Part shown: positions 35,849-52,058 of the stretch, piece by piece
Layout of the letters: every line of letters starts with the position of its first letter
Numbering within the stretch: position 1 is the stretch's first letter
Assembly: GCF_900091415.1 (NCBI RefSeq)
Contig: NZ_FMHU01000002.1
Location: forward strand, 744,001-808,000
Source of the DNA: Micromonospora inyonensis
GTDB taxonomy: Bacteria > Actinomycetota > Actinomycetes > Mycobacteriales > Micromonosporaceae
Direction: 5' to 3'
Length of the DNA stretch: 64,000 nucleotides
The notes under the pieces: model-generated
The model's input: only the letters and a program-made list of their open reading frames with translations
Database searches by the model: none
What the model was told of the DNA's origin: nothing
Program-made: the position numbers and the translations under genes

Positions 35849-36146
35849 TCAGCTCGTGGGTTTCTCGGCGACGAAGATGGCGGTGCCGGGGAAGAGCCGC
35901 CCGCGCAGCGGGCTCCACTGACCCCAGATCCCCTCGTGCCCCTCCGGCCACTCCGGTTCGACCAGGTCGATCAGGCGGAACCCGGCGCCGACCAGCTCAC
36001 GGACCCGGTCACCGAGGGTGCGGTGCTGCTCGACGTAGGTCGCGACGCCCTCCTCGTCCTGCTCCACGTAAGGGGAGCGGTCGAAGTAGGAGTGGACGGC
36101 GGTCAGCCCGCCCTCGCCCGGGTCGTCGTAGAAGATCCAGCGCATC
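35849..36146 (-). pseudogene. 3' fragment of the host SAM methyltransferase gene
   Basis: This is the C-terminal third of a class I methyltransferase, starting at RWIFYDDPGEGG and ending LFPGTAIFVAEKPTS. It lacks the SAM-binding domain. The matching 5' part is at 51206-51711. Joined at the shared ATC core, the two give an unbroken 801-nt gene (266 aa) reading THPMRWIF across the junction. The 15-kb element separates them. Weak TTG/ATG codons near 36145 could allow translation of this piece, but it would be inactive. Confidence 0.9.
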
Positions 36147-36170
36147 AAGTGGGTGTGATCTTGCTACATC
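36128..36170. other. Left attachment site (attL)
   Basis: Host sequence (GAAGATCCAGCGC) meets the element at the ATC core, 36144-36146. On the element side AAGTGGGTGTGATCTTGCTA is one arm of an imperfect dyad whose other arm is at attR. Confidence 0.85.
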
Positions 36171-36234
36171 AATAACGCCTGCTCGCGCCTGGGATGCCCA
36201 CTCGCCATACGTCCCGCCGTACCTCGCGCCTGGG

Positions 36235-37059
36235 TTACGGCGCGGCTGGACGACGGGCCACGAAGATGGCGGTGCCCGGGAACAGCCGACCGCGTATCGG
36301 ACTCCACTGGCCCCACACCTCTTCGTGTCCTGGCGGCCACTCCGGTTCAACTACGTCACAGAGAATGAAGCCGGCGGCCGTCAGTTCTCGGACCCGGTCG
36401 CCAAAGGTGCGGTGCGCCTCGATGTAGGAGGGCACCCCTGCCGAATCCTGTTCGATGTACGGGCGGCGGTCGAAGTAGGAGTGTACAGCGGTCAGGCCAG
36501 CCTCGCCGGGGTCGTCCAAGAAAATCCAGCGAATGGGGTGAGTAACGGCAAAGACCCACGCTCCGCCGGGGCGCAGCACCCGGAACACTTCGCGCATGAG
36601 TGCCTCGGAGTCTGCGACGAACGGCACAGCGCCGAACGCGGTATGCACCGTGTCGAACGTGTCTGCCCGGAACGGCATCGCTAGGGCGTCGGCTTGTATG
36701 AGCGGCACATGTACGCCCGAGCGGTCGGCGGCCAGTCTGGCATGCCGCAACATGCCAGCAGACAGGTCTAGAGCTGTCACGTCGGCCCCTTGGCCGTCCA
36801 GCCACCGCGAGCCCGCAGCCGCACCGCAGCCGATCTCCAGGACCCGAGTTCCCTTGACGTCGCCGAGGAGCCGGACGTCTGCTTCGCGTAGGCCCTCGGG
36901 ACACCACACCAGGTCGACATCCCCCAGGAATGCGCCGTGCTCCGCCTGGTAGCTGTCGGCGTCCTCGTCCCACCAACGTCGGCTCGCCGCCCTGCCCTCT
37001 GCGTCGGACACCGTACGGCGACTGACGACGGGTTCGGGGGGCGTTGGGGGCTCGGTCAT
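36235..37059 (-). CDS. Element-borne SAM-dependent methyltransferase
   Basis: A complete 274-aa class I methyltransferase. Motif I is TRVLEIGCGAAAGSRWLDGQ, then ALDLSAGMLRHAR, FDTVHTAFGAVPFVAD and LRPGGAWVFAVTHPIRW. It matches both halves of the disrupted host enzyme along its length, so it can replace it. The stretch matching the insertion site (GTTACTCACCCCATTCGCTG) encodes the same peptide as the host with changed third bases. ATG 37059 is preceded by TACCGT ending 7 nt upstream, suggesting a leaderless mRNA. The substrate is unknown. Confidence 0.92.
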   Translation of the reverse strand: MTEPPTPPEPVVSRRTVSDAEGRAASRRWWDEDADSYQAEHGAFLGDVDLVWCPEGLREADVRLLGDVKGTRVLEIGCGAAAGSRWLDGQGADVTALDLSAGMLRHARLAADRSGVHVPLIQADALAMPFRADTFDTVHTAFGAVPFVADSEALMREVFRVLRPGGAWVFAVTHPIRWIFLDDPGEAGLTAVHSYFDRRPYIEQDSAGVPSYIEAHRTFGDRVRELTAAGFILCDVVEPEWPPGHEEVWGQWSPIRGRLFPGTAIFVARRPAAP

Positions 37060-37207
37060 GCTTGTAACGGTACGGATCGCAGTAACCGGGAAAGCGGCGG
37101 GTGTCAAGACGGGCAGGGGGCGGTTCGTTCAGGCCCGCCCCTGCTCGCGCAGCGTCAGCTTGGGTGACACCCTGAGCCATCGCCGCTCACGGCCGGTGAC
37201 CCGCTCC

Positions 37208-37549
37208 TTACCCCTCCTCCAGAGCGATCGTGTATGCGTGCACGAAGAAGGTTTCGACCCGTGCTCGGTGCAGGTGGCCGGCAAGTGCCTTGTCGCCCTC
37301 TTGACCGAGGACTACATGCACATGGACTTTGCCATCCCGGATTTCTCCCGTGCCGCTCAGCTCAAGCGGCTGACGGTACTCGTTGACGATGTCCGTGCCC
37401 GCGTCGCCCGCGAGCATGTTGCTGATTGCACACTCATCGACAGCGCCGATCAGCGAAACGATAGCGCCATTCGTTATCCCCTCTTCTGCGGCCCGTCTGG
37501 TCAGCGTCTCGATTACCTCTTCACCGGGCTTGACGCGCAACAGCTTCAT
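37208..37549 (-). CDS. PPC/DUF296-domain protein
   Basis: A 113-aa single PPC (DUF296) domain: MKLLRVKPGEEVIETLTRRA, GAIVSLIGAVDECAIS, LELSGTGEI and VHVHVVLGQEGDKALAGHL. Bacterial members form trimers; several are linked to DNA-binding proteins or small-molecule metabolism. ATG 37549 has AGGA upstream. It starts 5 nt after the HTH gene stop, so the two are one operon, and the methyltransferase follows 148 nt later. Confidence 0.88.
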   Translation of the reverse strand: MKLLRVKPGEEVIETLTRRAAEEGITNGAIVSLIGAVDECAISNMLAGDAGTDIVNEYRQPLELSGTGEIRDGKVHVHVVLGQEGDKALAGHLHRARVETFFVHAYTIALEEG

Positions 37550-37553
37550 ATTC

Positions 37554-38840
37554 CTATCCAATCGCTAGAGGGGTAATTCCTGCCAGTACAGCCGCATATG
37601 CTCGCAGGTTCTCACGACACTCTTCGTGCTGCACAGCGGACATGAGAGCAGATCGGGTCCGAGTGTCCTCGACATCTATGCAGCTGGCGAGCAGTACAGC
37701 GCTGCACCATCGGGCGGCAGCGTCGCGGCCATTCTCAAGCTCGGCGGTGAGCCGTTGCGATACCCATTCTCTTGGGTGGTTGCTCTCGCCAAGAATCCGC
37801 CCTGCTGCTTGAGTTGTCACGCCGGACAGGTGCGCTGCCCGCTCCCATGGCAGTTCCAAGACTCGGCTGGCAACGGCCGTGAGGTAGAGGTGGCGGGCGT
37901 CTTGATCGCTGCGGATGGCCGAGATTGCGGCATCGCCCAACCCGGCCGCTCCTACCTTGGCGAGGATACCGGCAGAGTTGACCCGCAGGACCGCTGTAGC
38001 CCCCGTGCGCATCCATGCGGTCAGCCCTCGCCGCGCTCCTTCGCTGTCGGCCGCTAGTGCGCTAATCGTCAGATCGGTAGCGTGACTGGTCTGGGCGGTA
38101 GCAAGGAGATGTCCACTGCCCTGCGCGATGTCGCCGAAGACTCGGTGGGCGACGAGCACGTCTGTCAGCGCGGGGTCTGTAAATCGGTATGACCCGCTTG
38201 CGTTCCGCATGACGTGTGGATGCGTGTTGAGGCGTAGTGAAATAGACTGCGGAATTTGAGAAGGGTTCAGTTCGTTCGTTCGGTGCTGCCAAAGTTGCCA
38301 TGCGAGCCACTCAACGGCCTCGTGGTCGCCCATCAAACGGGCGGACACCGATTGGTCGCAGAGGAAGCCGCTGGCCGCAGTGGCGGCCGTCGAGGCGAAA
38401 AACTGGCGACGGTTCACTTCACGCTCTTTCTCGTCCAGCTCCCCGCTGGTGGCCGGCAGAGCGAACCACAACCGATTCTCCGGTATGCGTAGCAACGTCG
38501 CCCATTGCACCAAGCGATCAAGGTGGACCAAGGGGGGACCGTTCTCCACCCGGCTTAACTGAGCTTGGCTCATGCCAATCCAGGAGGCGGCCTGATCTTG
38601 AGATATTGGATGGCGGCCGTGGTAGGGGTGCGTCCGCCACGCCCGGATCACCCGGCCCATGTGCCGACTGTGAAGTGCTTGGGCTAGGACGATCTCATCC
38701 CAGAAGTCGGCCGGAACCTCCGGCGCTGCACCTGGATGTTGCCGGCTGTAGGACGAGCAGGGCGAGCAGCACCCGTTGGTGTTGTCGCGTGCAAGACGTA
38801 CGCCGCAGCGGCAATAGCGAGCCTCGTGGGTAGCTGTCAT
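37554..38840 (-). CDS. HTH regulator with Cys-rich N-terminus
   Basis: A 428-aa protein. The first 35 residues hold a possible zinc site (CRCGVRLARDNTNGCCSPC). An XRE-type HTH follows near residues 75-100 (QDQAASWIGMSQAQLSRVE). The remainder is a helical repeat domain as in actinomycete XRE/TPR regulators. The start is ATG 38840. It heads the minus-strand operon with the PPC protein and the methyltransferase and faces a divergent HTH operon. Confidence 0.8.
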   Translation of the reverse strand: MTATHEARYCRCGVRLARDNTNGCCSPCSSYSRQHPGAAPEVPADFWDEIVLAQALHSRHMGRVIRAWRTHPYHGRHPISQDQAASWIGMSQAQLSRVENGPPLVHLDRLVQWATLLRIPENRLWFALPATSGELDEKEREVNRRQFFASTAATAASGFLCDQSVSARLMGDHEAVEWLAWQLWQHRTNELNPSQIPQSISLRLNTHPHVMRNASGSYRFTDPALTDVLVAHRVFGDIAQGSGHLLATAQTSHATDLTISALAADSEGARRGLTAWMRTGATAVLRVNSAGILAKVGAAGLGDAAISAIRSDQDARHLYLTAVASRVLELPWERAAHLSGVTTQAAGRILGESNHPREWVSQRLTAELENGRDAAARWCSAVLLASCIDVEDTRTRSALMSAVQHEECRENLRAYAAVLAGITPLAIG

Positions 38841-39181
38841 CGTGGCGTCCTTGTGTGGCAGCCGAGCCTAGATGGTATGCGGTGCAACTTGATGATCCCA
38901 TCCGAGTGCCGGTTGTGCTTATGCATGAGACGCATATCGACATCCGCCCTCTGTCATGTTGCGCAAGGTCGAGCCCTCGGCATCCTGTTCTAACGATAAG
39001 CGATCGGCTAGTTACAGCAGTTCGTCTCCCCGCCCGTTCGTGACTGTTGACTCCGTGCGGGTGAGGGTCGGCATGCCGCGCGAGTCGTAGGACTCGCAAC
39101 GGTCCTGCCTCGCGCGGCTTGCTCGACCGGCCCAGCTTGAACGGCGCTTGACCAGCGGCGACCAGGAAACGGACTTTCATT
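38841..39181. promoter_or_regulatory. Divergent control region of the element
   Basis: A 341-bp intergenic region between two divergent HTH-led operons. It contains a perfect 7-bp inverted repeat GCGAGTC-GTAG-GACTCGC (39080-39097) and a TTGACT word at 39048. The operator role is inferred. No gene is seen. Confidence 0.45.
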
Positions 39182-39814
39182 GTGGCGTATCAACCAGGAC
39201 CGAACGATCTACTGCGCGCGGCGCGGCTGGCGCTGCGGTCCCCTTCGGGGTCGGGTCGGCCGATGTCGCGGCAGGAGTTGGCCGAGGCGGTCAACGCGTA
39301 CTTGTACGAGCACGCGGGACGCCGGTTTGCCGTTCATGCCCGCTACATCGGCACTCTTGAACGCGGTACTACTCGGTGGCCGTCCGCGCACTACCGGACG
39401 GGATTGCGGGCGGTGCTGGGCAAGGCCACGGATGCGGAACTCGGCTTCTTCATCATCCAGGGGCACGCCAAGGATCCGGACGGGATCCGGGTCGAGCCGG
39501 CCCGGAGTACCGGTCCGTCTGACGCTGCGCCGGCCGACCTTCGCGCCACGGTGCCCGTGGCTACCCGTAGGGGAATCGCGTCTCCCCGGGAGGCAGGCGG
39601 CGGGCTCCGGGTAGTGCCGGCCGTCGCGGCGGCGGTGCAGGTCAGCGTGAACGCTGGCGCGGCGGTCAGGTTGATGTGCCACGACGGGCGGCCCGGCTGC
39701 GTCGCGGTGATGGCTGGTCCGCTACGGGTTTTGATCGACGTGTCGGACGTCGATTCAGTCAGCGCCGCCTCGTCCGGCAATGCCTCTGTGATGCTCGGTG
39801 CGGTGGCCCCGTGA
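39182..39814 (+). CDS. HTH DNA-binding protein of actinomycete elements
   Basis: A 210-aa protein starting at GTG 39182. Its N-terminal 90 residues (LALRSPSGSGRPMSRQELAE, YIGTLERGTTRWPS, HYRTGLRAVLG) are an XRE-like DNA-binding domain common in Streptomyces and Micromonospora mobile elements. The C-terminal half is an alanine/valine-rich domain of unknown role. It is the first of four overlapping genes ending with murC. Confidence 0.75.
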   Translation: MAYQPGPNDLLRAARLALRSPSGSGRPMSRQELAEAVNAYLYEHAGRRFAVHARYIGTLERGTTRWPSAHYRTGLRAVLGKATDAELGFFIIQGHAKDPDGIRVEPARSTGPSDAAPADLRATVPVATRRGIASPREAGGGLRVVPAVAAAVQVSVNAGAAVRLMCHDGRPGCVAVMAGPLRVLIDVSDVDSVSAASSGNASVMLGAVAP

Positions 39815-40284
39815 GCCGTTTTGCGTCTGCGGAGGGCTCGACCTCGGATCGGGTGTCGGTGGACCTGGTGACGCCGGGTGAGTTGGCGGACGCTCGCAGG
39901 CTGCTGGGGGCTCAGTTGGCAGCAATGCGGAGAGGTGTTGGCCTCACTCAGGATCAGCTTGCCACGAAGGTGCGGTGGTCCCGGAGCACGGTCGCCAATG
40001 TGGAGACGGGGCGGCAGGTGACTCTTCGGGAGTTTTGGGCCGCCTGTGATGTCGTGTTGGGCGCGGGTGAGCTGTTGGTGTTGGGGTGGGCGCGGACGGA
40101 GGCGTTGTCGCGCCGGCTGCGTGATCAAAAGGCGGCGGAGCTGATCCGGCAGCGGCTGGCGCAGCCGGTCCCGGGCTGCGTGTGCCTTGATCTTCAACGG
40201 CTGTTCACTGAGCCCGGCGCGTCGCTACCCCTCGGCAGTCCGTCCGCTGCATCCATGACGATGAACGGAAGTGATCATGGATGA
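39811..40284 (+). CDS. XRE-family transcriptional regulator
   Basis: A 157-aa protein starting at GTG 39811, overlapping the previous stop (GTGA). The HTH is clear: MRRGVGLTQDQLATKVRW then SRSTVANVETGRQ. A short helical segment follows and a low-complexity tail. It is probably the repressor of its own operon. Confidence 0.82.
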   Translation: MSRFASAEGSTSDRVSVDLVTPGELADARRLLGAQLAAMRRGVGLTQDQLATKVRWSRSTVANVETGRQVTLREFWAACDVVLGAGELLVLGWARTEALSRRLRDQKAAELIRQRLAQPVPGCVCLDLQRLFTEPGASLPLGSPSAASMTMNGSDHG

Positions 40285-40657
40285 CGACGATGCGGATCTG
40301 ATCCGGCCGAGGCATCGCCCGCATCGGTCACGTCGGTTCCCGGGTGGTCGGCCGTGTGCCTGCCCGGGGTGTCGCACCGCGCGGAAGCGAGAGCGGCAGG
40401 TTCCCCGTCCGGGAGTGGTGCCGTCCGCTGGTGCTGTCCCGGCTTCTGGTGGCGACGCGATGCCGTCGCCTGCGGGGTTCGGGCCGGTGGATTGGCCGAC
40501 GCAGATCGATTGGACCCGCGCGGCCGAGTTGGTGACCCGAGGCCAACTCCGCCGTGCGCAAGGAATCGCACGAGTGAAAGGAGTGAATCCCTCTAGCACG
40601 TCAGCTCATGGCACCAACTCGTCAGCTCTTACCCAGAATGGAGACACGGCACCATGA
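40277..40657 (+). CDS. Hypothetical protein
   Basis: A 126-aa protein starting at ATG 40277 (MDDDDADLIRPRHRPHRSRR) inside the previous 3' end. It has an acidic start, an Arg/His-rich segment with two cysteines (CACPGC), then WPTQIDWTRAAELVTRGQLRRAQ, a predicted helix. No family recognised. Its stop overlaps the murC ATG (ATGA), which supports real coding. Confidence 0.6.
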   Translation: MDDDDADLIRPRHRPHRSRRFPGGRPCACPGCRTARKRERQVPRPGVVPSAGAVPASGGDAMPSPAGFGPVDWPTQIDWTRAAELVTRGQLRRAQGIARVKGVNPSSTSAHGTNSSALTQNGDTAP

Positions 40658-42099
40658 CCGACACGATCACTGGTAACCCGACGATCGAGGCGTACACCGG
40701 CCGCCTCAACCTGTCCCGTACGCACTTCGTGGGGATCGGCGGGAGTGCGATGTCCGGCCTGGCTCGGCTGTTGGCCGAGCTGGGCTACCAGGTAAGCGGC
40801 AGCGATGTGACCGACTCGGCCGCCCTGGCGGGCCTGCGCACGGCCGGCGTGCGGGTGCGGGTGGGGCACGACGCCGCGCACATCGACGGGGCGAGCTGCG
40901 TCGTCTACACCACCGTCGCGCGGAACGCGCCGGAGGTGATTGCGGCCCGCGCCGCTGGAGCCCCGGTCGTGCACCGGGCGCAGGTTCTCGACTGGCTGGC
41001 CGGGTCGCGGCGGCTGGTGGCCGTCTCCGGTTCGCACGGCAAGTCCACCACGACGGCGATGCTCGCCCACATCCTGCGTACCCTCGGGCAGGACCCGACG
41101 TACCTGATCGGGGCCGACCTGACCGGCCCTGGGTCCGGCGCTCACCTGGGTACGTCGCGGCTGCTGGTGGCGGAGGCAGACGAATCGGACCGGTCGTTCC
41201 ACTTCCTCACCCCGTCGTTCGCGGTGATCACCAACGTCACCGACGATCATCCGGAGAACTTCGCGAGCCACGCCGACGTGATGCGCGCCTACGTCGGGTT
41301 CGGTTGCCGGCTCGCGCCGCACAGGTTCCTGATCGTCAACGCCGACTGCGTGGGCGCGACGGTGGCCGCCGACGTGATCGCCGACGAGCGGCCTGATCTG
41401 ACGGTGCTGCGGTATGGGCGGGACCGGGCGGCGGACGTTCGGTTGCTGGACGTGCAGGCGCGGGGGTGGAGCGCTTCGGCCACGGTGCGGGTACCGAACG
41501 GCACCGAGGTACGGCTGACCCTGCCGACTCCGGCCGCCCACCACCTAGACAACATGGCGGCGGCGGTGGCGTGCGCGGTGGCTCTCGGCTCCGATCCGGC
41601 TGACGTGGCGGGGGCGGCGTGCGCGTTCGGCGGGGTGCGCCGCCGGTTCGAGCACGTGGACACGCGGGCCGGGGTGACGCTGATCGACTCCTACGCCGAC
41701 CACCCGAACGAGATCGCCGCCGACCTGGACGCCGCGCGGGCCCTGGCGCGGGGACGGGTCATCGTGGTGTTCCAGCCGTCCGGGCACGCCCGCGTTCTGG
41801 CATTCGGGGAGCGGATCGGCCGGGTCCTGGCGGACAAGGCCGATCACGTTCTGCTGCTCGACGTGCACGGCGCTGTGCCGGTGGGGCGGCCCGTGGCGGA
41901 TGCGGCGGGGATCATGCCGTGGTTGCGGGACGGTCAGTGCTGCATGCCGCTCGGCCCGGACCACGCGGGCCGGGTGGTCGCACGGATGGCCGGCCGCGGT
42001 GACGTGGTGCTGACGATGGGCACCGGCGATGTGACCGGCTACGGTGCGGCCATCCTGGACAGCCTGGGCAGCCGATCCGAGGTCGCCCTGTCCGCCTGA
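40654..42099 (+). CDS. murC: Accessory UDP-N-acetylmuramate--L-alanine ligase
   Basis: A 481-aa Mur ligase of the MurC type, which adds L-Ala to UDP-MurNAc. The N-terminal domain has FVGIGGSAMSGLARLL and GYQVSGSDVTDSAAL, the ATP site GSHGKSTTTAML (near residue 127), and the C-terminal domain IDSYADHPNEI. MurC is normally in the dcw cluster, so this copy is probably an extra one carried as cargo. It is the last gene of a four-gene overlapping operon with two HTH regulators. Alternatives are resistance to a MurC-directed antibiotic or amide-bond formation in another pathway. Confidence 0.88.
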   Translation: MTDTITGNPTIEAYTGRLNLSRTHFVGIGGSAMSGLARLLAELGYQVSGSDVTDSAALAGLRTAGVRVRVGHDAAHIDGASCVVYTTVARNAPEVIAARAAGAPVVHRAQVLDWLAGSRRLVAVSGSHGKSTTTAMLAHILRTLGQDPTYLIGADLTGPGSGAHLGTSRLLVAEADESDRSFHFLTPSFAVITNVTDDHPENFASHADVMRAYVGFGCRLAPHRFLIVNADCVGATVAADVIADERPDLTVLRYGRDRAADVRLLDVQARGWSASATVRVPNGTEVRLTLPTPAAHHLDNMAAAVACAVALGSDPADVAGAACAFGGVRRRFEHVDTRAGVTLIDSYADHPNEIAADLDAARALARGRVIVVFQPSGHARVLAFGERIGRVLADKADHVLLLDVHGAVPVGRPVADAAGIMPWLRDGQCCMPLGPDHAGRVVARMAGRGDVVLTMGTGDVTGYGAAILDSLGSRSEVALSA

Positions 42100-42112
42100 C
42101 CCCTGTTTCGGG

Positions 42113-43504
42113 TCAGGCGGTGACGGCGCCGGTTTCCTCGACCAGCTTGTCTGCGAGCGCGAGGAGTCCGGCGCTGTTGGCTGCCTTGACCAACACCACA
42201 TCCCCCGGCCGTAACCCGTCGCGTAGTAGCTCCCATGCCTCGGCCACGTCGGCCGCCCGATCCACTGCCGTGGCGGTGCCGGCGGCTCCGGCCGCATACT
42301 GCTCGGCGTCCGTGCCGCCGATGGCGACCAGCCAGCCCGCGTCGATCTCGGCCACCTGCTGCCCGATCTCCCGGTGCACCTCGGCGGCGTGGTCGCCCAG
42401 CTCGGCCATCTCACCCAGCACGGCCACCGCTCGCCGGCCGTCACCGGTCATGGCGTGCAGTGCCCGCAGTGCGGCGCGCATGGCGTCGGGTGCGGCGTTG
42501 TAGGCGTCGTTGATGATCGTCACCCCGTCGGGGCGGGTGGTGACCTGCATCCGGCCCGGTGACACCGCCTCCGCCAGCGACAGTGCGTCGGCCACCGCTT
42601 CGATCGGATGGCCCAGCCCGAGGGCGACGGTGGCGGCGGCCAGGGCGTTGGACGCCTGGTGCAACCCGTACAGCCGCAACCGCACCTCGGCGGACTTGCC
42701 GTGGTGCACGAGCCGGAAGCGTGCGCGGCCCAGCTCGTCCACGGTCACGTTCTCGGCGCGTACGTCGGCCGGCTGTTCGATGCCGTAGCGGAGCACCCGG
42801 GCGGCCGTGCGGGCAGCCATGGCGGTCACCAACTCGTCGTCGGCGTTGAGGACGGCTAGGCCACCGTCGCCCGCGTCGGGGAGTGCTTCCACGATCTCGC
42901 CTTTGGCCTGGGCGATGTTCTCCACCGACCCGAATTCGCCAAGGTGCGCGTGCCCGACCCGGGTGACGACACTGACCGTGGGCGGGGCGATGCGGGTCAG
43001 GTACGCCACATGCCCGATCCCGCGAGCGCCCATCTCCAATACGAGGTAGCGGGTGTCTGCGGTGGCACGGGTGACGGTGTAGGGCAACCCGAGTTCGTTG
43101 TTGTTCGACGCTCGGTTGGCGACGGTCGGGCCGAACGCGGGGAGCACCTGCGCCAGGATGTCCTTGGTTGATGTCTTGCCCACCGAGCCGGTCACGCCGA
43201 TCACCGTGGTCTGCGGGAGTCGGTCCACGACCGCGCGGGCCAGCCGCCCGTATGCGCCGGGCATGTCGTCGACGACGACCGCCGGGAGGCCGACCGGTCG
43301 AGACGCCAACACCGCCGCTGCCCCGGCCTGGATGGCTTGGGCGGCGTAGTCGTGCCCGTCAACGCGCTCACCGGGCAGTGCCACGAACATGCCGCCGGGC
43401 TCCACGCGCCGGCTGTCGAACACCACCGGGGCCGTCACGGTCACCGTATCGGGGGCGTCGTGGACGGCTCCGCCGACAACGGCCGTGATCTCTTGCAGGG
43501 TCAT
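42113..43504 (-). CDS. murF: Accessory UDP-MurNAc-tripeptide--D-Ala-D-Ala ligase
   Basis: A 463-aa MurF-type ligase, which adds D-Ala-D-Ala to the UDP-MurNAc tripeptide. The N-terminal domain reads PVVFDSRRVEPGGMFVALPG, the ATP site GVTGSVGKTSTKDIL is near residue 105, and ASNNNELGLPYTV and INDAYNAAPDAM are MurF signatures. ATG 43504 is chosen; a GTG lies 9 nt upstream. It converges on murC with 13 nt between. It has its own promoter region (TAGGTT at 43520-43525). Confidence 0.88.
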   Translation of the reverse strand: MTLQEITAVVGGAVHDAPDTVTVTAPVVFDSRRVEPGGMFVALPGERVDGHDYAAQAIQAGAAAVLASRPVGLPAVVVDDMPGAYGRLARAVVDRLPQTTVIGVTGSVGKTSTKDILAQVLPAFGPTVANRASNNNELGLPYTVTRATADTRYLVLEMGARGIGHVAYLTRIAPPTVSVVTRVGHAHLGEFGSVENIAQAKGEIVEALPDAGDGGLAVLNADDELVTAMAARTAARVLRYGIEQPADVRAENVTVDELGRARFRLVHHGKSAEVRLRLYGLHQASNALAAATVALGLGHPIEAVADALSLAEAVSPGRMQVTTRPDGVTIINDAYNAAPDAMRAALRALHAMTGDGRRAVAVLGEMAELGDHAAEVHREIGQQVAEIDAGWLVAIGGTDAEQYAAGAAGTATAVDRAADVAEAWELLRDGLRPGDVVLVKAANSAGLLALADKLVEETGAVTA

Positions 43505-43519
43505 CGGAAGCACGACAAG

Positions 43520-43525
43520 AACCTA
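43520..43525 (-). promoter_or_regulatory. -10 box before murF
   Basis: TAGGTT on the minus strand lies 15 nt upstream of ATG 43504. No clear -35 is seen. Confidence 0.35.
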
Positions 43526-43741
43526 CCGCGCCGGGTCGGCTGCGGGTGCGGCGCATCGGCGCGGCTAGCTGGACCGTGTTCGACCTTCTCAGGCTTCGCC
43601 GGGCGACTGCACGGCCGGTCATTCGTTCGGGTGGAGGTCCGCGACCGGTCGCGGATGGCGGATCGCCATCTCAAGGTTTTGACTTCTGCGGGTCGGGCTA
43701 TGCCAAGCTGTAATTTAGAGGTCGCGCAAATTAGGTGGGCT

Positions 43742-44602
43742 TCATGGCCGGCGGGTGGGGCGGGTGTCCCACCGGTACAAGATCCATGCGTGACGGATGA
43801 GGCTACGGATGGTGATGATGGCGTCGGCGAGGTCGAAGTAGGCGTTGACCACGTCTTCTTTAGGTTCGTAACAGCGTTGCAGCCGGTTGAAGGCGTTGTG
43901 CCAGGCGTTCGTGCGCTCGACGTGCCACCGCCGGGTGGCCTGGATTGGGGCTTTGACGCCCTTGCGGGCGATCTCGCCGGTCAGCCTGCGGGCGGTGAGC
44001 AGGTCGCGGGTTTTCTGGGAGTCGTACCCGGCGTCCAGGTGCACGGTGATGGTGGCGGGCAGCGGGCCGAGGTCGTCGAGCCGGTCCAGGGTGGATGCCA
44101 GCAGCGGGGAGTCGTGGCGGTGGGCGCCGGCCAGGACGCGACCCAGTGGGATGCCGCGGGCCTCGACCATGACCGAACGTTTCATGCCTTGCTTGCCGCG
44201 GTCGACCGGTGAACGGCCAGCGACCTCGCCACCGCCGGGCGCCTTGGTGATGCACCCATCGACGGCGAGGTCGTCCAGCAGCAGCCCGACGAGACGGTCG
44301 TAGGCGTTCAGCGCGATCGTCTTGAGCTGGGCGAACACGCCCAACTGGATCCACTCATCGCGGCGGTTGCGGATCGTGGTGGCCGAGCAGGTCGAGTCAG
44401 CGATGCCCTGGTAGGAGCAGCCGAAACGCAGCACCTGCAGCAACTTGTCGAACACGATCCGGTCGGCGACCCGCCGGCGGTGACAGCCCAGCGGATGGGT
44501 GGGGTCGGTAGCGGGACGGGGTGGCAGCAGCGCGGCGAACTGGTCCCACAAGGGGTCGCTCAGCCATGATGGGACAGCGGGCACAGGCGTTCCAGTGATC
44601 AT
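43742..44602 (-). CDS. IS5-family transposase, copy A
   Basis: A 286-aa DDE transposase with DLAVDGCITK (first Asp), HLDAGYDSQKT (second Asp) and WHVERTNAWHNAFNRL (Glu). The protein is identical to copy B. The nested IS lies directly before its ATG, so the coding region is whole but the native promoter and ribosome site are displaced. Reading can appear to continue upstream into the nested IS, but that is not native. Confidence 0.93.
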   Translation of the reverse strand: MITGTPVPAVPSWLSDPLWDQFAALLPPRPATDPTHPLGCHRRRVADRIVFDKLLQVLRFGCSYQGIADSTCSATTIRNRRDEWIQLGVFAQLKTIALNAYDRLVGLLLDDLAVDGCITKAPGGGEVAGRSPVDRGKQGMKRSVMVEARGIPLGRVLAGAHRHDSPLLASTLDRLDDLGPLPATITVHLDAGYDSQKTRDLLTARRLTGEIARKGVKAPIQATRRWHVERTNAWHNAFNRLQRCYEPKEDVVNAYFDLADAIITIRSLIRHAWILYRWDTRPTRRP

Positions 44603-44603
44603 T

Positions 44604-45616
44604 GAGCCTTTCCGCGTAACGGGTCGTGGCGTTGGGTGATCAGGTTGTGCGGTTGTGCTCGACGTGCAGGAGCACGAGGGCCGCCGCGGTGATCCTGCCG
44701 ATGTTCCACGGGCACAGGCTGACGTTGCGCAGCGCTTTGAAGGTGGTCTTGAGCAGGGAGTTTCCGCGTTCGCCGATGGCGCGGACACCGTTGTGGGCCT
44801 TGTTGAACTGCTGCTGCACGTCGGTGCAGGTGCCGTTGCGCGGCTTCTTGAACGCGGTCGTGATCGTGTCGGCTTCGCCTTCGTAGCCAAGGTCGCCGAG
44901 AACCCGCCGCTGGTCGTTGGTCCAGGCGGTCAGCAGGGGCAGGATGCCGTGTTCGCGCAGGGCGGTCGTGTCATGTTCCCGGCCGGGACGCACTGGTGAG
45001 GTCCACAGCGGCCACCCGTCCGGGGCGGTGATGACCTGCACGTTACCGCCGTGGTTGTCGTGTTTGCCGGACCACCAGAGGTCCACTCCCGGCGTCGGCC
45101 CCGGTGTGCGGCACCGGTCGGTCTCGATCAGGGTCCCGTCGATGTTCACGTGGGCGTAGCCGGCCATCTTCGCCGCCAACAGCACCGATTCCAGGCCCGG
45201 CGCGTGCGCGGCGAGGACCCGGATGCCCTCGTGCAGGTAGGCGTAGCCGGTCGACGAGCTGACCTGGTTGTCGATGGCCAACTGCTTGACCCGAGTGCCG
45301 TCGAGGAACCAGCGGATCACCAGGATCGCCTGCTTGAAGCAGCTCAGCGACCGCGTCCCGGAACGGGTCCCGAGCCGCTGCCGTTGCCCATGCAGAAGCC
45401 CGGACAGGAACAACACGGTCTCCTCGCGCACGGACAGCTCGGCGGTGTATGTGACACTCATGGCGACGCAGGGCCCCTACTGAAGTTGATCTGTGGAAGG
45501 ACCACTTCATACCGGGGCTCTGCGTCTTTCCCTTGCACCACAACGGGTCCGGGCGTGTCCGCACCGCCCACCAACGCCGCTACGCGCCGCACTCACACCG
45601 TTACGCGGAAAGGCTC
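44604..45616 (-). mobile_element. Nested IS (1,013 bp)
   Basis: A perfect 19-bp terminal inverted repeat (GAGCCTTTCCGCGTAACGG) bounds the element, with ATT duplications at 44601-44603 and 45617-45619. It inserted into the AATGATC that contains the start codon of the copy A transposase. Confidence 0.92.
44640..45461 (-). CDS. Transposase of the nested IS (DDE, IS5-like)
   Basis: A 273-aa transposase. An N-terminal HTH (KQLAIDNQVSSSTGYAYLHE) precedes the DDE core: VNIDGTLIETDRC, VLGDLGYEGEAD and RAIGERGNSLLKTTFK. It fills most of the IS. Length and motifs look intact. Confidence 0.88.
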   Translation of the reverse strand: MSVTYTAELSVREETVLFLSGLLHGQRQRLGTRSGTRSLSCFKQAILVIRWFLDGTRVKQLAIDNQVSSSTGYAYLHEGIRVLAAHAPGLESVLLAAKMAGYAHVNIDGTLIETDRCRTPGPTPGVDLWWSGKHDNHGGNVQVITAPDGWPLWTSPVRPGREHDTTALREHGILPLLTAWTNDQRRVLGDLGYEGEADTITTAFKKPRNGTCTDVQQQFNKAHNGVRAIGERGNSLLKTTFKALRNVSLCPWNIGRITAAALVLLHVEHNRTT

Positions 45617-45701
45617 ATTAGGCGTAGGAACCTTCATGATTACTGATGCCTGTGCCCGTCTCCTACCCGGCTCATCCCCGCTGACCTATTTGCGCGACCT
45701 C

Positions 45702-46040
45702 TTAGAGATCAATCTCGTCGTCATTGTCAGGTGCCGGAATCCAGTACGGTTCCCGTTCAACCGGTACAACGAGGGCCGCTGCCGGACGCGACCTCGCCCA
45801 CCTCAGAACCTCCTCGCGGGTCCCTTCAATTCCCGCCACCCCTGCCGTCTGACCACCTGGCATCTCGTCTACCCACTTTGCAGCCCAGACAATCTCCCGT
45901 TCCAGGTTGCGGCATTTATGTATATAGACTGTGCCTTGCCCGGGGCGGGGATCGGTTATCACCTGCGCGGGCGCGATTTCTTCGTCACGAATCTCTGGCG
46001 GAAGATAATAGGCGTTCGTGCGGCGGCGAGGTTGCTCCAT
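45702..46040 (-). CDS. Hypothetical protein beside IS copy A
   Basis: A 112-aa protein (MEQPRRRTNAYYLPPEIRD, ending DNDDEIDL). ATG 46040 is chosen because a TAGTAT -10 box ends exactly 7 nt upstream, suggesting a leaderless mRNA. The stop codon TAA lies in the TTA target duplicated by IS copy A, so the insertion spared the protein. Conserved-looking segments are GTVYIHKCRNLEREIVWAAK and GTREEVLRWARSRP. No function recognised. Confidence 0.6.
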   Translation of the reverse strand: MEQPRRRTNAYYLPPEIRDEEIAPAQVITDPRPGQGTVYIHKCRNLEREIVWAAKWVDEMPGGQTAGVAGIEGTREEVLRWARSRPAAALVVPVEREPYWIPAPDNDDEIDL

Positions 46041-46168
46041 ACGGCGGATACTAGCGGACTGATTGCGATCCGAACCCGGAACCGGATCGAGCCCCGCGTG
46101 ATCACTTACGTTGATCATGCGGGGCTCGACCGTCAGGTGCTACTCAGGCACCGCTCGCCCTGGCCGCG

Positions 46169-46927
46169 TCAGGACGGATCCCACCCCGAGCCGTACCAGG
46201 CGCTCCCCATCTGCGGCGGGTCGTCCAGGTTGTACGCCCCGGCAGAGTTGCGGTGGAACTTCGGGCTCTTGATGAAGGTGTACCAGCGCCCCGGGTACGA
46301 ACTGGACGGGTCCGTCCAGTCGAACTGATGAGCCACGCCGGCATGAGCGACGGTGCTCTCATAGCCGACGTAGCCACCGGAGCCGAAGCAGTTCACCAAG
46401 GCTCCGGCCCCATACGGGCCACCGCTCCAGGTCCGCCGCGTCGACCCCCCACTCACGGGGTAGCCCTCGGGATGGGCACTGCTGAGGTACAGCCGCTCAC
46501 CCGACGCCCGGACCTGCTTCGTGCCGCGCGTCGACTCGAACTGGAAGGGCTTCGACGTGGAAGAGCCTCCGCTGAACTGCACTTCGATGAAGAACTCGGT
46601 ACTTCCCAGCGTGGTCCCGTTGTAGCCGTAGATGCCATCGCCACTGAACTCGGCCCAGTAGTTCGCGACGTAGTACCAGCACCCCAACGCCGAGCAGGTT
46701 CCACCGTCGGCCCGCACCTTCGACGTGTCCGGGCAGACCCATGCGCCCTTCCGTGCGCTAACCGGACTGGAGCACTGGTCGGCCCCGGATGCGGTCACGG
46801 CTCCGATGTATGCCTTCGTCGTAGTGGTCGGAATGGAGCCTGCGACTGCCGGAGTGGTGCTCGCGCTGAGCCCTCCGACCATCACCAGTGCTGCGGTGAG
46901 TAGCAGTCTTACGAACCGTTTGACCAT
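46169..46927 (-). CDS. Secreted protein of unknown function
   Basis: A 252-aa protein starting at ATG 46927 behind GAAGAGG. A signal peptide (MVKRFVRLLLTAALVMVGG, cleavage near AVAGS) is followed by a Gly/Ser/Tyr-rich mature domain with about five cysteines and many aromatic residues (CWYYVANYWAEFSG, SAWYGSGW). The composition suggests a beta-rich extracellular protein. It is probably element cargo; family not recognised. Confidence 0.7.
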   Translation of the reverse strand: MVKRFVRLLLTAALVMVGGLSASTTPAVAGSIPTTTTKAYIGAVTASGADQCSSPVSARKGAWVCPDTSKVRADGGTCSALGCWYYVANYWAEFSGDGIYGYNGTTLGSTEFFIEVQFSGGSSTSKPFQFESTRGTKQVRASGERLYLSSAHPEGYPVSGGSTRRTWSGGPYGAGALVNCFGSGGYVGYESTVAHAGVAHQFDWTDPSSSYPGRWYTFIKSPKFHRNSAGAYNLDDPPQMGSAWYGSGWDPS

Positions 46928-47092
46928 CGCCTCTTCTTCCGTAGGGGGCGTTCGGCAATAACCGTTGGGTCGCTCGCCGTCCACCTCGATATGGGGGATG
47001 GGGCACACAGGAGTCCAGGGCCCTTACTCGACAGACGCCCCGTGCCTGATCGAACGCTATCGCTGCGCTTGCCGGCAAACAAGGACATCGAT

Positions 47093-47113
47093 TGTCGGAG
47101 TTGGGCTCCGACA
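47093..47113 (+). promoter_or_regulatory. Hairpin upstream of rep
   Basis: TGTCGGAG (47093-47100) pairs with CTCCGACA (47106-47113) around a 5-nt loop, 46 nt before the rep ATG and followed by TTCTT. It could regulate rep or be part of a replication origin. Confidence 0.4.
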
Positions 47114-47159
47114 TTCTTCAGCGATTACCAGAGCCAGAATTGCTTGAACGGGGATTCCC

Positions 47160-48572
47160 ATGAACAGCATCCACCCAAGTGGAGATCTGCAAGGCTTGAC
47201 TTTCACCGACCGCGAGATTCTGACCACCGCCACTCACCCCGACTTCAGGGCGTGGCTTGCCCGCATCCGCCACATCGGCGGCTGCCAACACCCCGTGCAC
47301 CTCGTCGGCCAAAGCCTGACCGTGGACGCCGCCACCGGCCGCCTCGTGCATGCCCTAACCAGCGCGGAGCAGCCACACGGCCGACTCACCATCGCCTGCG
47401 GCAACCGCCGCCAATCCCGCTGCGAACCCTGCGCCCGGCTACACCAAGGCGACACCTATCAACTCGTCGTGTCAGGGCTCGCCGGAGGCAAGGGCATCCC
47501 CGACACCGTGAGGGCGCACCCGCGCGTGTTCGTCACCTTCACCGCGCCCAGCTTCGGCCCCGTCCACCGGCACATTGCCGACCACCCGTGCCGGCCACCC
47601 CGCCCCGGCCGTGGCCTCGTCTGCACCCACGGCCGGCCCCTGTGGTGCCTCGACCGGCACCCGAGCGACAACCCACTCACCGGCTCGCCGATCTGCGGCG
47701 ACTGCTACGACCACCCCGCCGCCGTCCTCTGGAACGCCCACACCCGCGACCTGTGGCAACGCCTACACCGCAACCTGTACGAAGCCATCGCCACCAGTCG
47801 GGGCATCTCCCGCACCGCCGCACGAAAATCCGTCCGCGTCGCCTACGCCAAAGTCGCGGAGTACCAACGGCGTGGGTCGATCCACTTCCACGCCGTCATG
47901 CGCTTCGACGGCCCCACCCCCGACACCCCACCCCCGGCCTGGGCCACCCTCGCACTCCTGACCCAGACCATCCGCACCGCCACCCGCCGTGTCCACCTCG
48001 CCGTGCCCGGCCTGGACGCGATCCTGCGGTTCGGCGCGCAGCTCGACATCCGGCCCATCCTGCCCGGCAACGGCAGCGACGACGATCTCACCGAACGGGC
48101 CGTGGCCTCCTACATCGCCAAGTACGTCACCAAGCCCGATGTCGCCGGCATCACCGTTGACCGGCCCATCCGCGACGCCATCACCATCTCCGTCCTCCCC
48201 GTCACCGACCACGCCCGCACCCTCATCCGCACCTGCTGGACCCTCGGCGGCCGGACCGAATACAAGGCGCTGAACCTGCGGCGCTGGGCGCACCAACTCG
48301 GCTACCGAGGACACATCGCCAGCAAGAGCCGCGCCTACTCCACCAGCTACACCGCCCTCCGCGCCGCACGTGAGCAGCACCGCCGCGACCACAACGACCA
48401 GAAGGAAGCGCTCGACGACATCGACACCATCACCGACAAGCACTGGACCTACACCGGCAACGGCCACACCCCCGGACAAGCCATGTTCGCCGACGCCATC
48501 GCAGACGACCTCCAAACCGCCCGCGAAGCCGCCCACGAGGCGCGCACAGGTGGTGAGCGCGATGAGCCTTGA
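47160..48572 (+). CDS. RepSA-type rolling-circle replication initiator
   Basis: A 470-aa replication initiator of the pSAM2/AICE family. An N-terminal zinc-finger-like CGNRRQSRCEPCARLHQGD and CLDRHP...CGDC cysteines precede the HUH-type metal motif SIHFHAVMRFDG (near residue 240). The catalytic tyrosine motif VASYIAKYVTKP is near residue 317. Such proteins nick the element and replicate it after excision. The gene looks intact. It overlaps the small gene downstream by 11 nt. Confidence 0.9.
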   Translation: MNSIHPSGDLQGLTFTDREILTTATHPDFRAWLARIRHIGGCQHPVHLVGQSLTVDAATGRLVHALTSAEQPHGRLTIACGNRRQSRCEPCARLHQGDTYQLVVSGLAGGKGIPDTVRAHPRVFVTFTAPSFGPVHRHIADHPCRPPRPGRGLVCTHGRPLWCLDRHPSDNPLTGSPICGDCYDHPAAVLWNAHTRDLWQRLHRNLYEAIATSRGISRTAARKSVRVAYAKVAEYQRRGSIHFHAVMRFDGPTPDTPPPAWATLALLTQTIRTATRRVHLAVPGLDAILRFGAQLDIRPILPGNGSDDDLTERAVASYIAKYVTKPDVAGITVDRPIRDAITISVLPVTDHARTLIRTCWTLGGRTEYKALNLRRWAHQLGYRGHIASKSRAYSTSYTALRAAREQHRRDHNDQKEALDDIDTITDKHWTYTGNGHTPGQAMFADAIADDLQTAREAAHEARTGGERDEP

Positions 48573-48753
48573 ACCCGCATCGACGAACACGGAGCGGGCC
48601 GTCAGCGTTCAAACACCCGCCTGCAGGAGAGAACAGCGGTCCGACCAGGCTGAACACGTACGCAAAATCCTCGACGGATGGCCACCGCTGACAGAGGAAC
48701 AACGCTCGACGCTAGCGCTACTCGTGCAGTCACCGGACCGTGCGGCAGCATGA
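48562..48753 (+). CDS. Small protein downstream of rep
   Basis: A 63-aa protein starting at ATG 48562 within the rep 3' end. It ends ILDGWPPLTEEQRSTLALLVQS, a short helical motif that recurs at the end of small proteins in actinomycete elements. Position between rep and int is where excisionase genes usually lie, but no MerR-like HTH is visible, so an Xis role is not supported by motif. Confidence 0.5.
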   Translation: MSLEPASTNTERAVSVQTPACRREQRSDQAEHVRKILDGWPPLTEEQRSTLALLVQSPDRAAA

Positions 48754-50195
48754 CGGATAGCCCGCCATGCTGCCGCACGGTGGTTCAGCCCGCCCTGCGC
48801 GAAGAGTCCTTCGGAGCGATCTTTACCGTCCCCGGGTCAAACCCCTTCCGCCCCCGTACTGCCGGCAAGATCGTCACATCCATCAGTGTGTCAATGATGT
48901 GGCGGCGCTGGTCGTTGGTCACGTCGTGTGAGTACCACCACGCGCGTACGTCAGGGGCTGCGACGGCCGGACCAAGGATGTCCACTCGCCCCACATCCGC
49001 CAACTTCGCCTCGATCTCGGCAATGTCCGCCTCGGCTGCCTCGATGCCAGCCAACATCGTTGACCTCGGGATGCGCTTCTTCGCGTAGTCAACGCCGAGC
49101 TGCTTGAGCAGGACCCGCGAAGCCTCCAACTCTTCGCGGAGAGCGTCTACATCGGGCCGGTCGTGGTCGATGAGCAGATCAGCCCCATCACGCTCGATTA
49201 GGCCGATCACGACATCGCTCACCAGGTCGTCCACCGGCTGCGTCATCCGGCTGACGTGCTTGCCGGTGCGGCAGGTGTAGTTCTTGGCTCCCGTCCTCGA
49301 CTGGCCGCTCATGTTGACTGACTCGCCGCACAGACACATCGGGCGATTCCGGTGAGAAGGCCCATGGCGGACTTGCCGGTCTTCATCTTCCGCGCCGGGC
49401 TTTCCAAGATGGCCTTGACAGCGCGCCACGTCGGTTCGTCCACCAGAGCTGGCCACGCGGCCTTGGTGACCACCTCTCCGCGATGGGACCGCAAGCCAGC
49501 GTTGCGCGGGCTCACAAGCCACTTGCGTAGCGTCTCCGTGCGCCACAGGTTCCCTTGGCCGGTCCGCAGTCCAGCATCGTTCAGCGCGCGCACCTGGGAC
49601 GCGAGGTTGCTCTTGGCGAGAATCGCACGGTAGACGGCCTTGGCCGCCTTGGCCTCACTCTCGCGTAGCGTCACACGGTCAGGCTCGTAGCCGAACGGCC
49701 GAGGACCGGGTGCCGGTCGCCCCTTCTCGGCGTGCTGGCGGCTCGCCCGCTTCTGGCGCTCCGACTTCAACTCCGTCTCGTACCGGGCGTCACTTGCCGC
49801 GTTGTCGAAGAACTTTCGCCCCTGCGGTGTCGAGAGGTCGAACGTCATCCCGCGAGCGTAGGAGACGACTACCGGCTGAGGCGCGGCAAGACACGTCTCG
49901 TAGAACCGATACTCGTCGGTCTTGGTCTTCAGAAGGCGCTCACTGGACCAGGCGATGACCACATTGATTTCACCGGACGCGATCAGCTTGAGCAGCTTCT
50001 CGAATCCGGGCCGCCGACGGAGCGCGGTCTTGTCGTTGTCAACGAGCCGGTGCGCCACCGGCCACCTGTTGTAGTCGGCGTGGGCCTCGCAGTCCTCACC
50101 CTGCCGGGCGATGCCCTCCCCTTCGCGGCTCGTGCCCTTGTGCGGGTCGTCGGAAAGGCGGAGGCAGATCGCGGCTCGCCTCTCCTGGCTGCTTA

Positions 50196-51163
50196 GAGGT
50201 CGCGCAGATAGGTCAGCGGGGATGAGCCGGGTAGGAGACGGGCACAGGCATCAGTAATCATGAAGGTTCCTACGCCTAATGATCACTGGAACGCCTGTGC
50301 CCGCTGTCCCATCATGGCTGAGCGACCCCTTGTGGGACCAGTTCGCCGCGCTGCTGCCACCCCGTCCCGCTACCGACCCCACCCATCCGCTGGGCTGTCA
50401 CCGCCGGCGGGTCGCCGACCGGATCGTGTTCGACAAGTTGCTGCAGGTGCTGCGTTTCGGCTGCTCCTACCAGGGCATCGCTGACTCGACCTGCTCGGCC
50501 ACCACGATCCGCAACCGCCGCGATGAGTGGATCCAGTTGGGCGTGTTCGCCCAGCTCAAGACGATCGCGCTGAACGCCTACGACCGTCTCGTCGGGCTGC
50601 TGCTGGACGACCTCGCCGTCGATGGGTGCATCACCAAGGCGCCCGGCGGTGGCGAGGTCGCTGGCCGTTCACCGGTCGACCGCGGCAAGCAAGGCATGAA
50701 ACGTTCGGTCATGGTCGAGGCCCGCGGCATCCCACTGGGTCGCGTCCTGGCCGGCGCCCACCGCCACGACTCCCCGCTGCTGGCATCCACCCTGGACCGG
50801 CTCGACGACCTCGGCCCGCTGCCCGCCACCATCACCGTGCACCTGGACGCCGGGTACGACTCCCAGAAAACCCGCGACCTGCTCACCGCCCGCAGGCTGA
50901 CCGGCGAGATCGCCCGCAAGGGCGTCAAAGCCCCAATCCAGGCCACCCGGCGGTGGCACGTCGAGCGCACGAACGCCTGGCACAACGCCTTCAACCGGCT
51001 GCAACGCTGTTACGAACCTAAAGAAGACGTGGTCAACGCCTACTTCGACCTCGCCGACGCCATCATCACCATCCGTAGCCTCATCCGTCACGCATGGATC
51101 TTGTACCGGTGGGACACCCGCCCCACCCGCCGGCCATGAAGCCCACCTAATTTGCGCGACCTC
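50196..51163 (+). mobile_element. IS5-family element, copy B (968 bp, intact)
   Basis: Inverted repeats GAGGTCGCGCA at both ends, TTA duplications at 50193-50195 and 51164-51166. It is in opposite orientation to copy A and differs by at least one base in the left repeat. It splits the integrase gene. Confidence 0.93.
50279..51139 (+). CDS. IS5-family transposase, copy B
   Basis: A 286-aa DDE transposase identical to copy A (MITGTPVPAVPSWLSDPLWD; DLAVDGCITK, HLDAGYDSQKT, WHVERTNAWHN). Here the native upstream region (50196-50278) is undisturbed, so this is the copy likely to be expressed. Confidence 0.95.
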   Translation: MITGTPVPAVPSWLSDPLWDQFAALLPPRPATDPTHPLGCHRRRVADRIVFDKLLQVLRFGCSYQGIADSTCSATTIRNRRDEWIQLGVFAQLKTIALNAYDRLVGLLLDDLAVDGCITKAPGGGEVAGRSPVDRGKQGMKRSVMVEARGIPLGRVLAGAHRHDSPLLASTLDRLDDLGPLPATITVHLDAGYDSQKTRDLLTARRLTGEIARKGVKAPIQATRRWHVERTNAWHNAFNRLQRCYEPKEDVVNAYFDLADAIITIRSLIRHAWILYRWDTRPTRRP

Positions 51164-51177
51164 TTAACAGCGTCATA

Positions 51178-51225
51178 TGTCAATACTAGCAAAATCACCC
51201 ACCTGATCGGGTGGGTGACCGAGAA
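51178..51225. other. Right attachment site (attR)
   Basis: The element arm TAGCAAAATCACCCACCTG (51187-51205) meets host sequence GGGTGGGTGACC at the ATC core, 51206-51208. The element arms of attL and attR are near mirror images (TAGCAA-R-ATCAC...), as expected for the dyad attP of a serine integrase. Confidence 0.85.
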
Positions 51226-51711
51226 GACCCACCGCCCCCCGGGGCGTAGCACCCGGGCCGCCTCGCGCATCACCGCCGCCGAGTCGGCCACGAACGGGAT
51301 CGCGCCGAACGCCGTGCAGACCGTGTCGAAGGCCGCGTCGGCGAAGGGGAGGGCCAGCGCGTCGGCCTGCACCAGCGGGACGCGTACCCCGCTGCGGTCG
51401 GCGGACTGGGCGGCGTGCCGGAGCATGCCGGCGGACAGGTCGAGGGCGACCGGCCTGGCCCCCTGGGTGGCCAGCCACCGGGCGGCGGCGGCCCCGCAGC
51501 CGAGTTCCAGGATCCGCCGGCCGGCGAGGTCGCCGAGCAGCCGGGCGTCGGCCTCGTGCAGTCCCTCCGGGCACCAGACGAAATCCACCTCGCCGAGGAA
51601 GTGGCCGTGTTCGGCCTGGTAGTCGTCGGCGTCGGTGTCCCACCAGCGGCGGTTGGCCCGGCGCGCCTCGGCGTCGCCGACCCGGCGGCGCAGTACCCGG
51701 TTGTCGTCCAC
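51206..51711 (-). pseudogene. 5' fragment of the host SAM methyltransferase gene
   Basis: It starts at GTG 51711 (MDDNRVLRRRVGDAEARR) and carries the whole SAM-binding half: RRILELGCGAAAARWL, ALDLSAGMLRHA, LRPGGRWVFSVTHP. Beyond 51206 the frame runs into the element and IS copy B, reading VILLVLTYDAVKRS and more unrelated residues. It lacks the C-terminal third found at 35849-36146, so it is presumably inactive. Confidence 0.9.
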
Positions 51712-51849
51712 GCGCCCACGCTAGGCCCCACCCACCGGGCGGCCGTCGTCGGTGCCGACCCACGGGTGTGACGCCTGTTACAGAAGTGGGGGATTGCTGG
51801 CGATTCATCGGCTTTTGCAGCTGACGCGCCCCGGAGAGGATGGGAGGGC

Positions 51850-51880
51850 TTGCACGCTGTGGTAATGCACCCGGTAGGCT
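51850..51880 (+). promoter_or_regulatory. Probable rpsA promoter
   Basis: TTGCAC (51850-51855) and TAGGCT (51875-51880) are 19 bp apart. They would give a leader of about 170 nt before rpsA. The rest of 51712-52058 shows no gene. Confidence 0.45.
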
Positions 51881-52058
51881 AGACGATGCGCTCGCGGATC
51901 GTGTGTCTCGGCAGGGAGCAGGCGCGCGGTCAACGGAGCCACATCATGATCTCAGTAGACGATCGTTCGGTGTGCCCGGAGGCGGATCCGCTGGCGCGAA
52001 CAGGTCACTGCGACACAAGCCTGCTGTGACAAACCATCCGACCGGAGCAACCGCCCAC

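Follow-up and report, generated by a model that had tools for sequence, protein, structure and literature searches.

In the window analysed here, a stretch of 64,000 nucleotides from contig NZ_FMHU01000002.1 of Micromonospora inyonensis (genome G000), an element of 15,062 bp interrupts the S-adenosylmethionine (SAM) methyltransferase gene next to rpsA (MT) and carries a complete paralogue of the gene it breaks (elMT). Comparing this locus across 160 Micromonospora genomes and further genera of the family, we consider it very probable, as far as sequence comparison can tell, that the element compensates for its target gene and that the spare displaces the native gene in scattered lineages.

On the minus strand the two host pieces (Table 1) join to a frame of 801 nt with one terminal stop, leaving the element as intervening DNA. 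Joining the pieces in this way confirmed the proposal of a first-pass annotation, made from the sequence alone, that an element of this size splits the gene. The exact insertion base is ambiguous by about 3 nt: the ends share the core GAT, and adjacent break points likewise yield 801 nt. The host 5’ piece reads into element sequence unlike the lost part and then stops. Approximately 90 bp inside one end of the element lies elMT, a complete class I SAM methyltransferase of 274 aa that is identical to the joined host protein at 194 of 266 aligned residues, which bears out the earlier description of a full-length member of the same family just inside the element end. Across the whole G000 genome only elMT and the two host pieces match MT strongly, all further matches being at 41% or less.

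We used elMT as query against the 160 Micromonospora genomes and judged the co-occurrence of elMT and native MT at an E-value of 1e-40. Match coordinates were seen for most genomes; elsewhere a full-length MT was assumed from the E-value (≤1e-125 except in G058 and G117). Matches of the elMT type (at least 82%) were present in 15 of the 160 genomes, the next listed match being at 77%. In five genomes (G000, G040, G134, G144 and G145, the latter being Micromonospora tarensis STR1S-6) the native MT or an elMT-type resident of the same locus is split at the attachment base, and all five carry a complete elMT. A split gene without elMT was found in none of the 160. In all but two genomes the best match reached E ≤1e-125, a value that the split pieces alone do not reach. 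The remaining two, G058 and G117, were considered as elMT-less split sites and rejected: their breaks lie near query residues 85 and 64, away from the attachment base at about residue 178, and have the appearance of local damage or of contig ends. Likewise, an intact native MT together with an intact elMT was found in 0 of 160 genomes at E 1e-40. The first-pass annotation had proposed to check whether all occupied sites have an element-borne paralogue, and had named as evidence against its reading both a paralogue already lying beside the intact host gene in strains with an empty site and elements at this site that lack the paralogue with no change in fitness; neither occurs among these genomes. 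In G077 an intact native MT is accompanied by a truncated off-site relic of the elMT type with part of a G145-type regulator (L190 5777-8000, G077:C20). Here the spare has decayed where the native gene is intact, as compensation predicts. The native 3’ piece of G134 is reduced to its last 29 residues. In G144, 80 kb on the side of elMT contained neither the native 3’ piece nor polA, and the element may therefore have undergone a larger rearrangement there.

In G000, G145, G134, G144 and G040 the junctions are all located at CACCCGAT. Since the same base is used in five genomes with homologous element arms, this junction is not due to chance. An attP-like sequence could be rebuilt for G000, G145 and G040; it forms an imperfect dyad around GATC, with 10–11 of the first 14 arm positions matching in the inverted repeat of the three rebuilt sequences. 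A dyad attP, a short shared core and one precise target base are the marks of a large serine recombinase (LSR), and all three are found here. An LSR gene adjoins the junction in G145 and G040, and the intact G145 protein contains PF00239 (Resolvase) followed by PF07508 (Recombinase). In the window an insertion sequence (IS) intervenes and the LSR is broken. Relative to the target gene the window element has the opposite orientation to the other four elements, with the arms exchanged. Both orientations would be expected from the established biology of serine integrases if the crossover core is palindromic.

The relative in G145 looks complete. Over about 16.9 kb it comprises elMT, helix-turn-helix (HTH) regulators, MurC, MurF, an FtsK-type Tra (PF01580, E 6.5e-26), RepSA and the intact LSR. 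Of the features of actinomycete integrative and conjugative elements (AICEs), the window element shows an integrase beside the attachment site and a Rep initiator, here of the RepSA type (RepAM and Prim-Pol being the others); no Tra match was obtained in it at E 1e-6. Judged by its RepSA and LSR it is a decayed AICE-like element. Mobility genes were broken or not found in G000, G134 and G144. When 354 genomes of the family and 397 of the order were searched for the LSR at E 1e-50, matches were at most 45% identical, apart from the element copies of G000, G040 and G145; a genome contig collection yielded the records of G145 and G040 and no others, and viral contigs yielded none.

RepSA was present at E 1e-150 in 9 of the 160 genomes, three of which are G000, G040 and G145. 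The other six (G003, G035, G099, G106, G140 and G157) harbour sibling elements whose RepSA is 82–84% identical to the G145 copy. Tra is 84–87% identical in five of the six, whereas the stretch examined for G140 gave no Tra match; three of the siblings have pieces of MurC and/or MurF. All six siblings contain an open reading frame (ORF) of 540–547 aa of the tyrosine-integrase type beside a tRNA-Met (three) or tRNA-Arg gene (three); three of these ORFs were put to Pfam and all three matched Phage_integrase. No MT copy was found in the stretches examined for the six siblings, two of which end at contig ends, and each genome gave one MT match at E 1e-40. As the siblings lack an MT copy, the spare goes with the MT-targeting integrase and not with the backbone. 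Integrase and spare would then form a linked module standing where the siblings have their tyrosine integrase.

elMT is under purifying selection. Using the Nei-Gojobori method, dN/dS was 0.085–0.150 in four pairs of element copies, 0.110–0.143 in four native pairs and 0.092–0.143 in four pairs of residents; the G145 element copy gave 0.119 against the resident of G173, and G116 gave 0.074 against the G134 element copy. G077 comparisons were left out (frame slip), and six native rows contained stops. The dN/dS comparison suggested by the first-pass annotation thus yields values for elMT like those of native pairs. GC content at third codon positions (GC3), computed on the aligned part, was 0.69–0.76 in the five element copies, 0.74–0.90 (mean 0.81) in 11 residents and 0.76–0.99 (mean 0.94) in 59 native rows, a gradient consistent with foreign genes drifting towards host composition. 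The best solved-structure matches of MT are SAM methyltransferases of varied kinds. At class level, 156 of 296 genomes have a match at E 1e-80, so that MT is conserved among actinobacteria; as some genera of the family nevertheless gave no match, we regard it as useful and not universally essential. In the family genera g4 and g11 all genomes listed (5 and 10) were without an MT match at E 1e-40, and loss of the gene seems to be tolerated in these lineages. With regard to the source of elMT, a phage or plasmid origin was rejected (phage matches of at most 39% among the matches listed, 20 of 24 records; plasmid matches all below 60%), as was an origin outside the family, where the best listed class-level matches reached at most 66% vs 76% for a family native.

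We then compared the orientation of MT at its locus. In all 59 native loci inspected between polA and rpsA (40 from Micromonospora, 19 from other genera of the family) MT points away from rpsA, i.e. it lies on the minus strand relative to rpsA. MT of the elMT type at rpsA is inverted (plus strand) in 11 of 11 residents, ten from Micromonospora and one from G173 of another genus, and also in the split resident of G040. In the MT tree (80 rows, midpoint root) the five element copies, the 11 residents and the G040 resident form one group with support of 100/99, apart from all native rows; within it the closest partner of the G173 resident is the element copy of G145 (100/96). A quick species tree from PolA, RpsA and CoaE, in which G173 is a long branch with less than half of the columns, scatters the displaced genomes: G097 is placed by native G012, G116 by native G115, a group of eight by native G147, and G173 outside the genus. 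A clade of the displaced genomes was rejected in the approximately unbiased (AU) test, with five displaced representatives constrained among 20 chosen genomes (p-AU = 1.4e-14). By parsimony five changes are required, or four without G173.

Two displaced loci retain fossils. In G173, native residues 5–66 are found between elMT and rpsA, followed by residues from about 157 to 168 that run straight into CACCCGATCAAGTGGGTGCGATCTTGG, matching the junctions of the occupied genomes; upstream of elMT a remnant of 60 residues is 90% identical to the G145 regulator. The same junction is present in degraded form in G116, together with scraps of the native gene, of which the one for residues 61–77 is 88% identical to native sister G115 and 59–74% to other natives. 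For G116, G097 and G040 the six closest sequences per tested flank (rpsA start, polA end where present, DUF gene) all come from native-type loci, which argues against a spread of the locus by homologous recombination. For G006 and G037 the closest flanks are those of genomes from their own group, which is what descent would predict. In G040 the elMT-type resident has in turn been split, by an element that carries a further elMT; the two sides are on two contigs. Judged by these sequences, the spare appears to displace the native gene recurrently and in place, and what is seen in the relatives, a foreign homologue standing where the orthologue was lost and a gene tree at odds with the species tree, qualifies as xenologous gene displacement; in the window genome the native pieces persist. 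In the eight-genome group (G006 and seven related genomes; L049, L052-L057, L169) seven residents, all but that of G006, have CTG or TTG for the core ATG. Such a change would alter the integrase core, and both immunity and drift are possible.

The coordinates of the features are given in Table 1. Two inverted IS5-family copies, identical over 890 nt, bracket a 4.5-kb RepSA-LSR segment of the window element. Its MurC- and MurF-type ligase genes are convergent and additional to more distant genome copies (38% and 57%); such ligases recur in some of the siblings inserted at tRNA genes. A small PCC-domain protein is encoded at positions 37208–37561, between elMT and the regulator, and had no match in the other element stretches searched.

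Table 1. Features of the window that bear on the split MT gene, the inserted element and its flanks.
Feature	Position	Strand	Remarks
Native MT, 5’ piece	51206..51711	-	joins 3’ piece into 801-nt frame; groups with native Micromonospora MTs in tree
Native MT, 3’ piece	35849..36143	-	joins 5’ piece
Attachment junction, integrase side	51180..51235	.	shared core GAT on minus strand = ATC at 51206-51208
Attachment junction, elMT side	36120..36185	.	core ATC at 36144-36146; with other arm gives dyad attP-like sequence
elMT, complete spare MT	36235..37059	-	PF13649/PF08241; elMT-type group support 100/99; dN/dS 0.085-0.089 in two pairs with this copy
LSR, broken	48791..50196	-	Resolvase and Recombinase domains; frame shift near 49.5 kb; IS at 5’ end; 91-92% to intact G145 copy over N part
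RepSA replication initiator	47160..48572	+	PF20199 E 6e-143; best match NF041486, short of its cut-off (455.6 of 700 bits)
HTH/XRE-type regulator	37554..38840	-	PF13560
MurC-type ligase, backbone cargo	40654..42099	+	TIGR01082 just above cut-off; present in some other copies/siblings
MurF-type ligase, backbone cargo	42113..43513	-	TIGR01143 above cut-off; present in some other copies/siblings
IS5-family insertion, between integrase and attachment site	50192..51167	+	
Second, inverted copy of same IS	43714..45705	-	interrupted by another IS5-type element, 44603-45617
rpsA, host flank	51840..53549	+	ORF start to stop, true start further in; protein locates MT-adjacent rpsA in relatives
polA, host flank	32283..34982	+	protein locates polA in relatives

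Taken together, compensation probably proceeds as follows. The LSR inserts the element at one base within the conserved rpsA-adjacent MT gene, in either orientation, presumably owing to a palindromic crossover core. With a complete, separate homologue beside the attachment site, the gene would be broken without its function being removed, provided that elMT is expressed and equivalent in its enzymatic role, and the cost of insertion would be lowered. After integration nothing would hold back the decay of the mobility genes and the broken native pieces, whereas the spare would be maintained by selection. As the native pieces decay, the host would come to depend on the element’s copy. The end state, for which parsimony counts five changes, is the element’s gene at the native locus in inverted orientation.

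The first-pass annotation had gone further and read the element copy as recoded, encoding VTHPIRWIF with other codons where the host has VTHPMRWIF, and as thereby possibly resistant to being a target itself. Peptides and codons are correct (ACT CAC CCC ATT in the window copy vs ACC CAC CCG ATG in the target). In each of the five element copies, moreover, the codons that border the CACCCGATG 9-mer are unlike those of the native target: four copies have ACT and G145 has TAC on one side, and the codons on the opposite side are non-native as well. The core as such, however, is not specially recoded. Its divergence in the window pair lies below the gene-wide mean (10 nt differences in 15 codons vs 12.5, standard deviation 3.0), comparable codons are identical in 6 of 11 cases in the core vs 99 of 183 over the gene, and the low GC3 is gene-wide. 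In addition, CACCCGATG is kept in four of the five element copies, and three of these also keep CACCCGATGCGCTGG. Since the core is ordinary and the low GC3 extends over the whole gene, recoded is the wrong word: elMT is a divergent homologue. That the spare was recoded to keep the element from inserting into its own copy is therefore very improbable. Weaker protection through the arms is conceivable, and nothing tested supports it. The idea of self-protection is thus not supported, while that of target-gene compensation is supported by the spare in all five occupied sites, the siblings without it, purifying selection and displacement.

Alternatively, elMT could be a passenger captured from a chromosome, having no role for element or host, with its presence in five elements reflecting common descent only. 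The element copies are indeed related, the gene is absent from some genera, and an off-site relic exists in G077. Against this, elMT is under purifying selection, it persists in elements whose mobility genes are broken or lost, the siblings at other sites do not have it, and the native gene was repeatedly replaced; the G077 relic has decayed just where the native gene is intact. We thus rate the passenger as quite improbable. Hardly more plausible, and in our view still unlikely, is that a resident of the elMT type came first, by local inversion in one lineage, was picked up by the element and spread between species by homologous recombination. The common grouping in the MT tree (84/91) of the residents from G116, G097, G040 and the eight-genome group, and the lack of fossils in both G097 and the latter group, would fit such a course, but the fossil attachment junctions and native-gene scraps in G116 and G173 would not, nor would the native-type flanks of G116, G097 and G040.

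Several observations weigh against compensation and displacement as the preferred reading. The five elements share ancestry, so that five out of five are not five independent trials. The LSR was found in only 3 of the 160 genomes, and G134 and G144 were assigned via junction and elMT (plus MurC/MurF in G134). At E 1e-40, 32 of 300 family genomes have no MT match, and the gene is dispensable at the scale of genera. The split native 5’ pieces gave dN/dS of 0.064–0.285 vs 0.084–0.116 in three references, a hint of relaxed selection whose signs are weak and uneven. Finally, no fossils were detected in G097 or in any member of the eight-genome group, together nine displaced loci out of 11; there the route of displacement is inferred, and a spread by recombination is conceivable.

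Going beyond compensation as such, integrase and spare could constitute an exchangeable module that opens a cheap site in a conserved protein gene and makes the host dependent, so that successive elements ratchet through the locus. We regard the chances for and against this as evenly balanced; the displaced resident of G040 that was split again is an instance we offer for such a ratchet. If true, the module would be a rescue strategy of natural origin that works through a recombinase, and it would give xenologous gene displacement in place a concrete mechanism. In this system, what integration costs and how far the host depends on the element become directly testable.

RepSA, an FtsK/SpoIIIE-type Tra and an integrase next to the attachment site make up the AICE organisation as outlined in PMC3218068, and AICEs in protein genes are known from passages of PMC3218068 and PMC9513070; serine-recombinase AICEs have been reported in protein genes, one disrupting a putative endonuclease gene. 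The elements described here resemble AICEs in their RepSA initiator, the integrase by the attachment site and, in the complete G145 relative, the Tra. They differ in that the portions of the AICE descriptions at hand mention no element-borne copy of the interrupted gene, and the window copy further in its broken integrase and lack of a detectable Tra. Insertion damage offset by the element itself is also known: according to sections of PMC8409611, IMEVchUSA3 in dusA and SXT in prfC rebuild one end of their target, and prophages reconstitute 3’ ends of theirs (passages of PMC7380047). As far as these sources describe them, such elements contribute a promoter and/or one end of the gene, which is joined to what remains of the host gene, whereas here the gene is complete and separate and the host gene stays broken; in the window element no frame is rebuilt by fusion. 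Mobilizable elements with a serine integrase whose insertion disrupts rumA and similar genes (PMC5704250) share with ours the type of recombinase and the insertion within a protein gene, but in the relevant parts of that paper the targets are described as dispensable and no spare is mentioned.

A whole-gene spare for the target that leads to displacement was not found reported in the literature searched, with partial coverage and some narrow terms. A family carrying a whole replacement for the gene it destroys contrasts with the disruption of dispensable genes or the rebuilding of gene ends, as far as these have been described in the sources considered. Synthetic rescue gene drives combine insertion into a gene with a rescue copy that is altered at the target site to withstand attack, and rely on nuclease homing. 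The present elements are alike in combining insertion and rescue copy; unlike the drives, they are natural and use a site-specific recombinase, and their spare shows no recoding specific to the target site. The term xenologous gene displacement is defined in PMC1274311. What differs in the present case is that the vehicle, the insertion event and the intermediates are visible: in-place displacement can be followed through empty, occupied, decayed, fossil, displaced and re-invaded states, nearly all within one genus.

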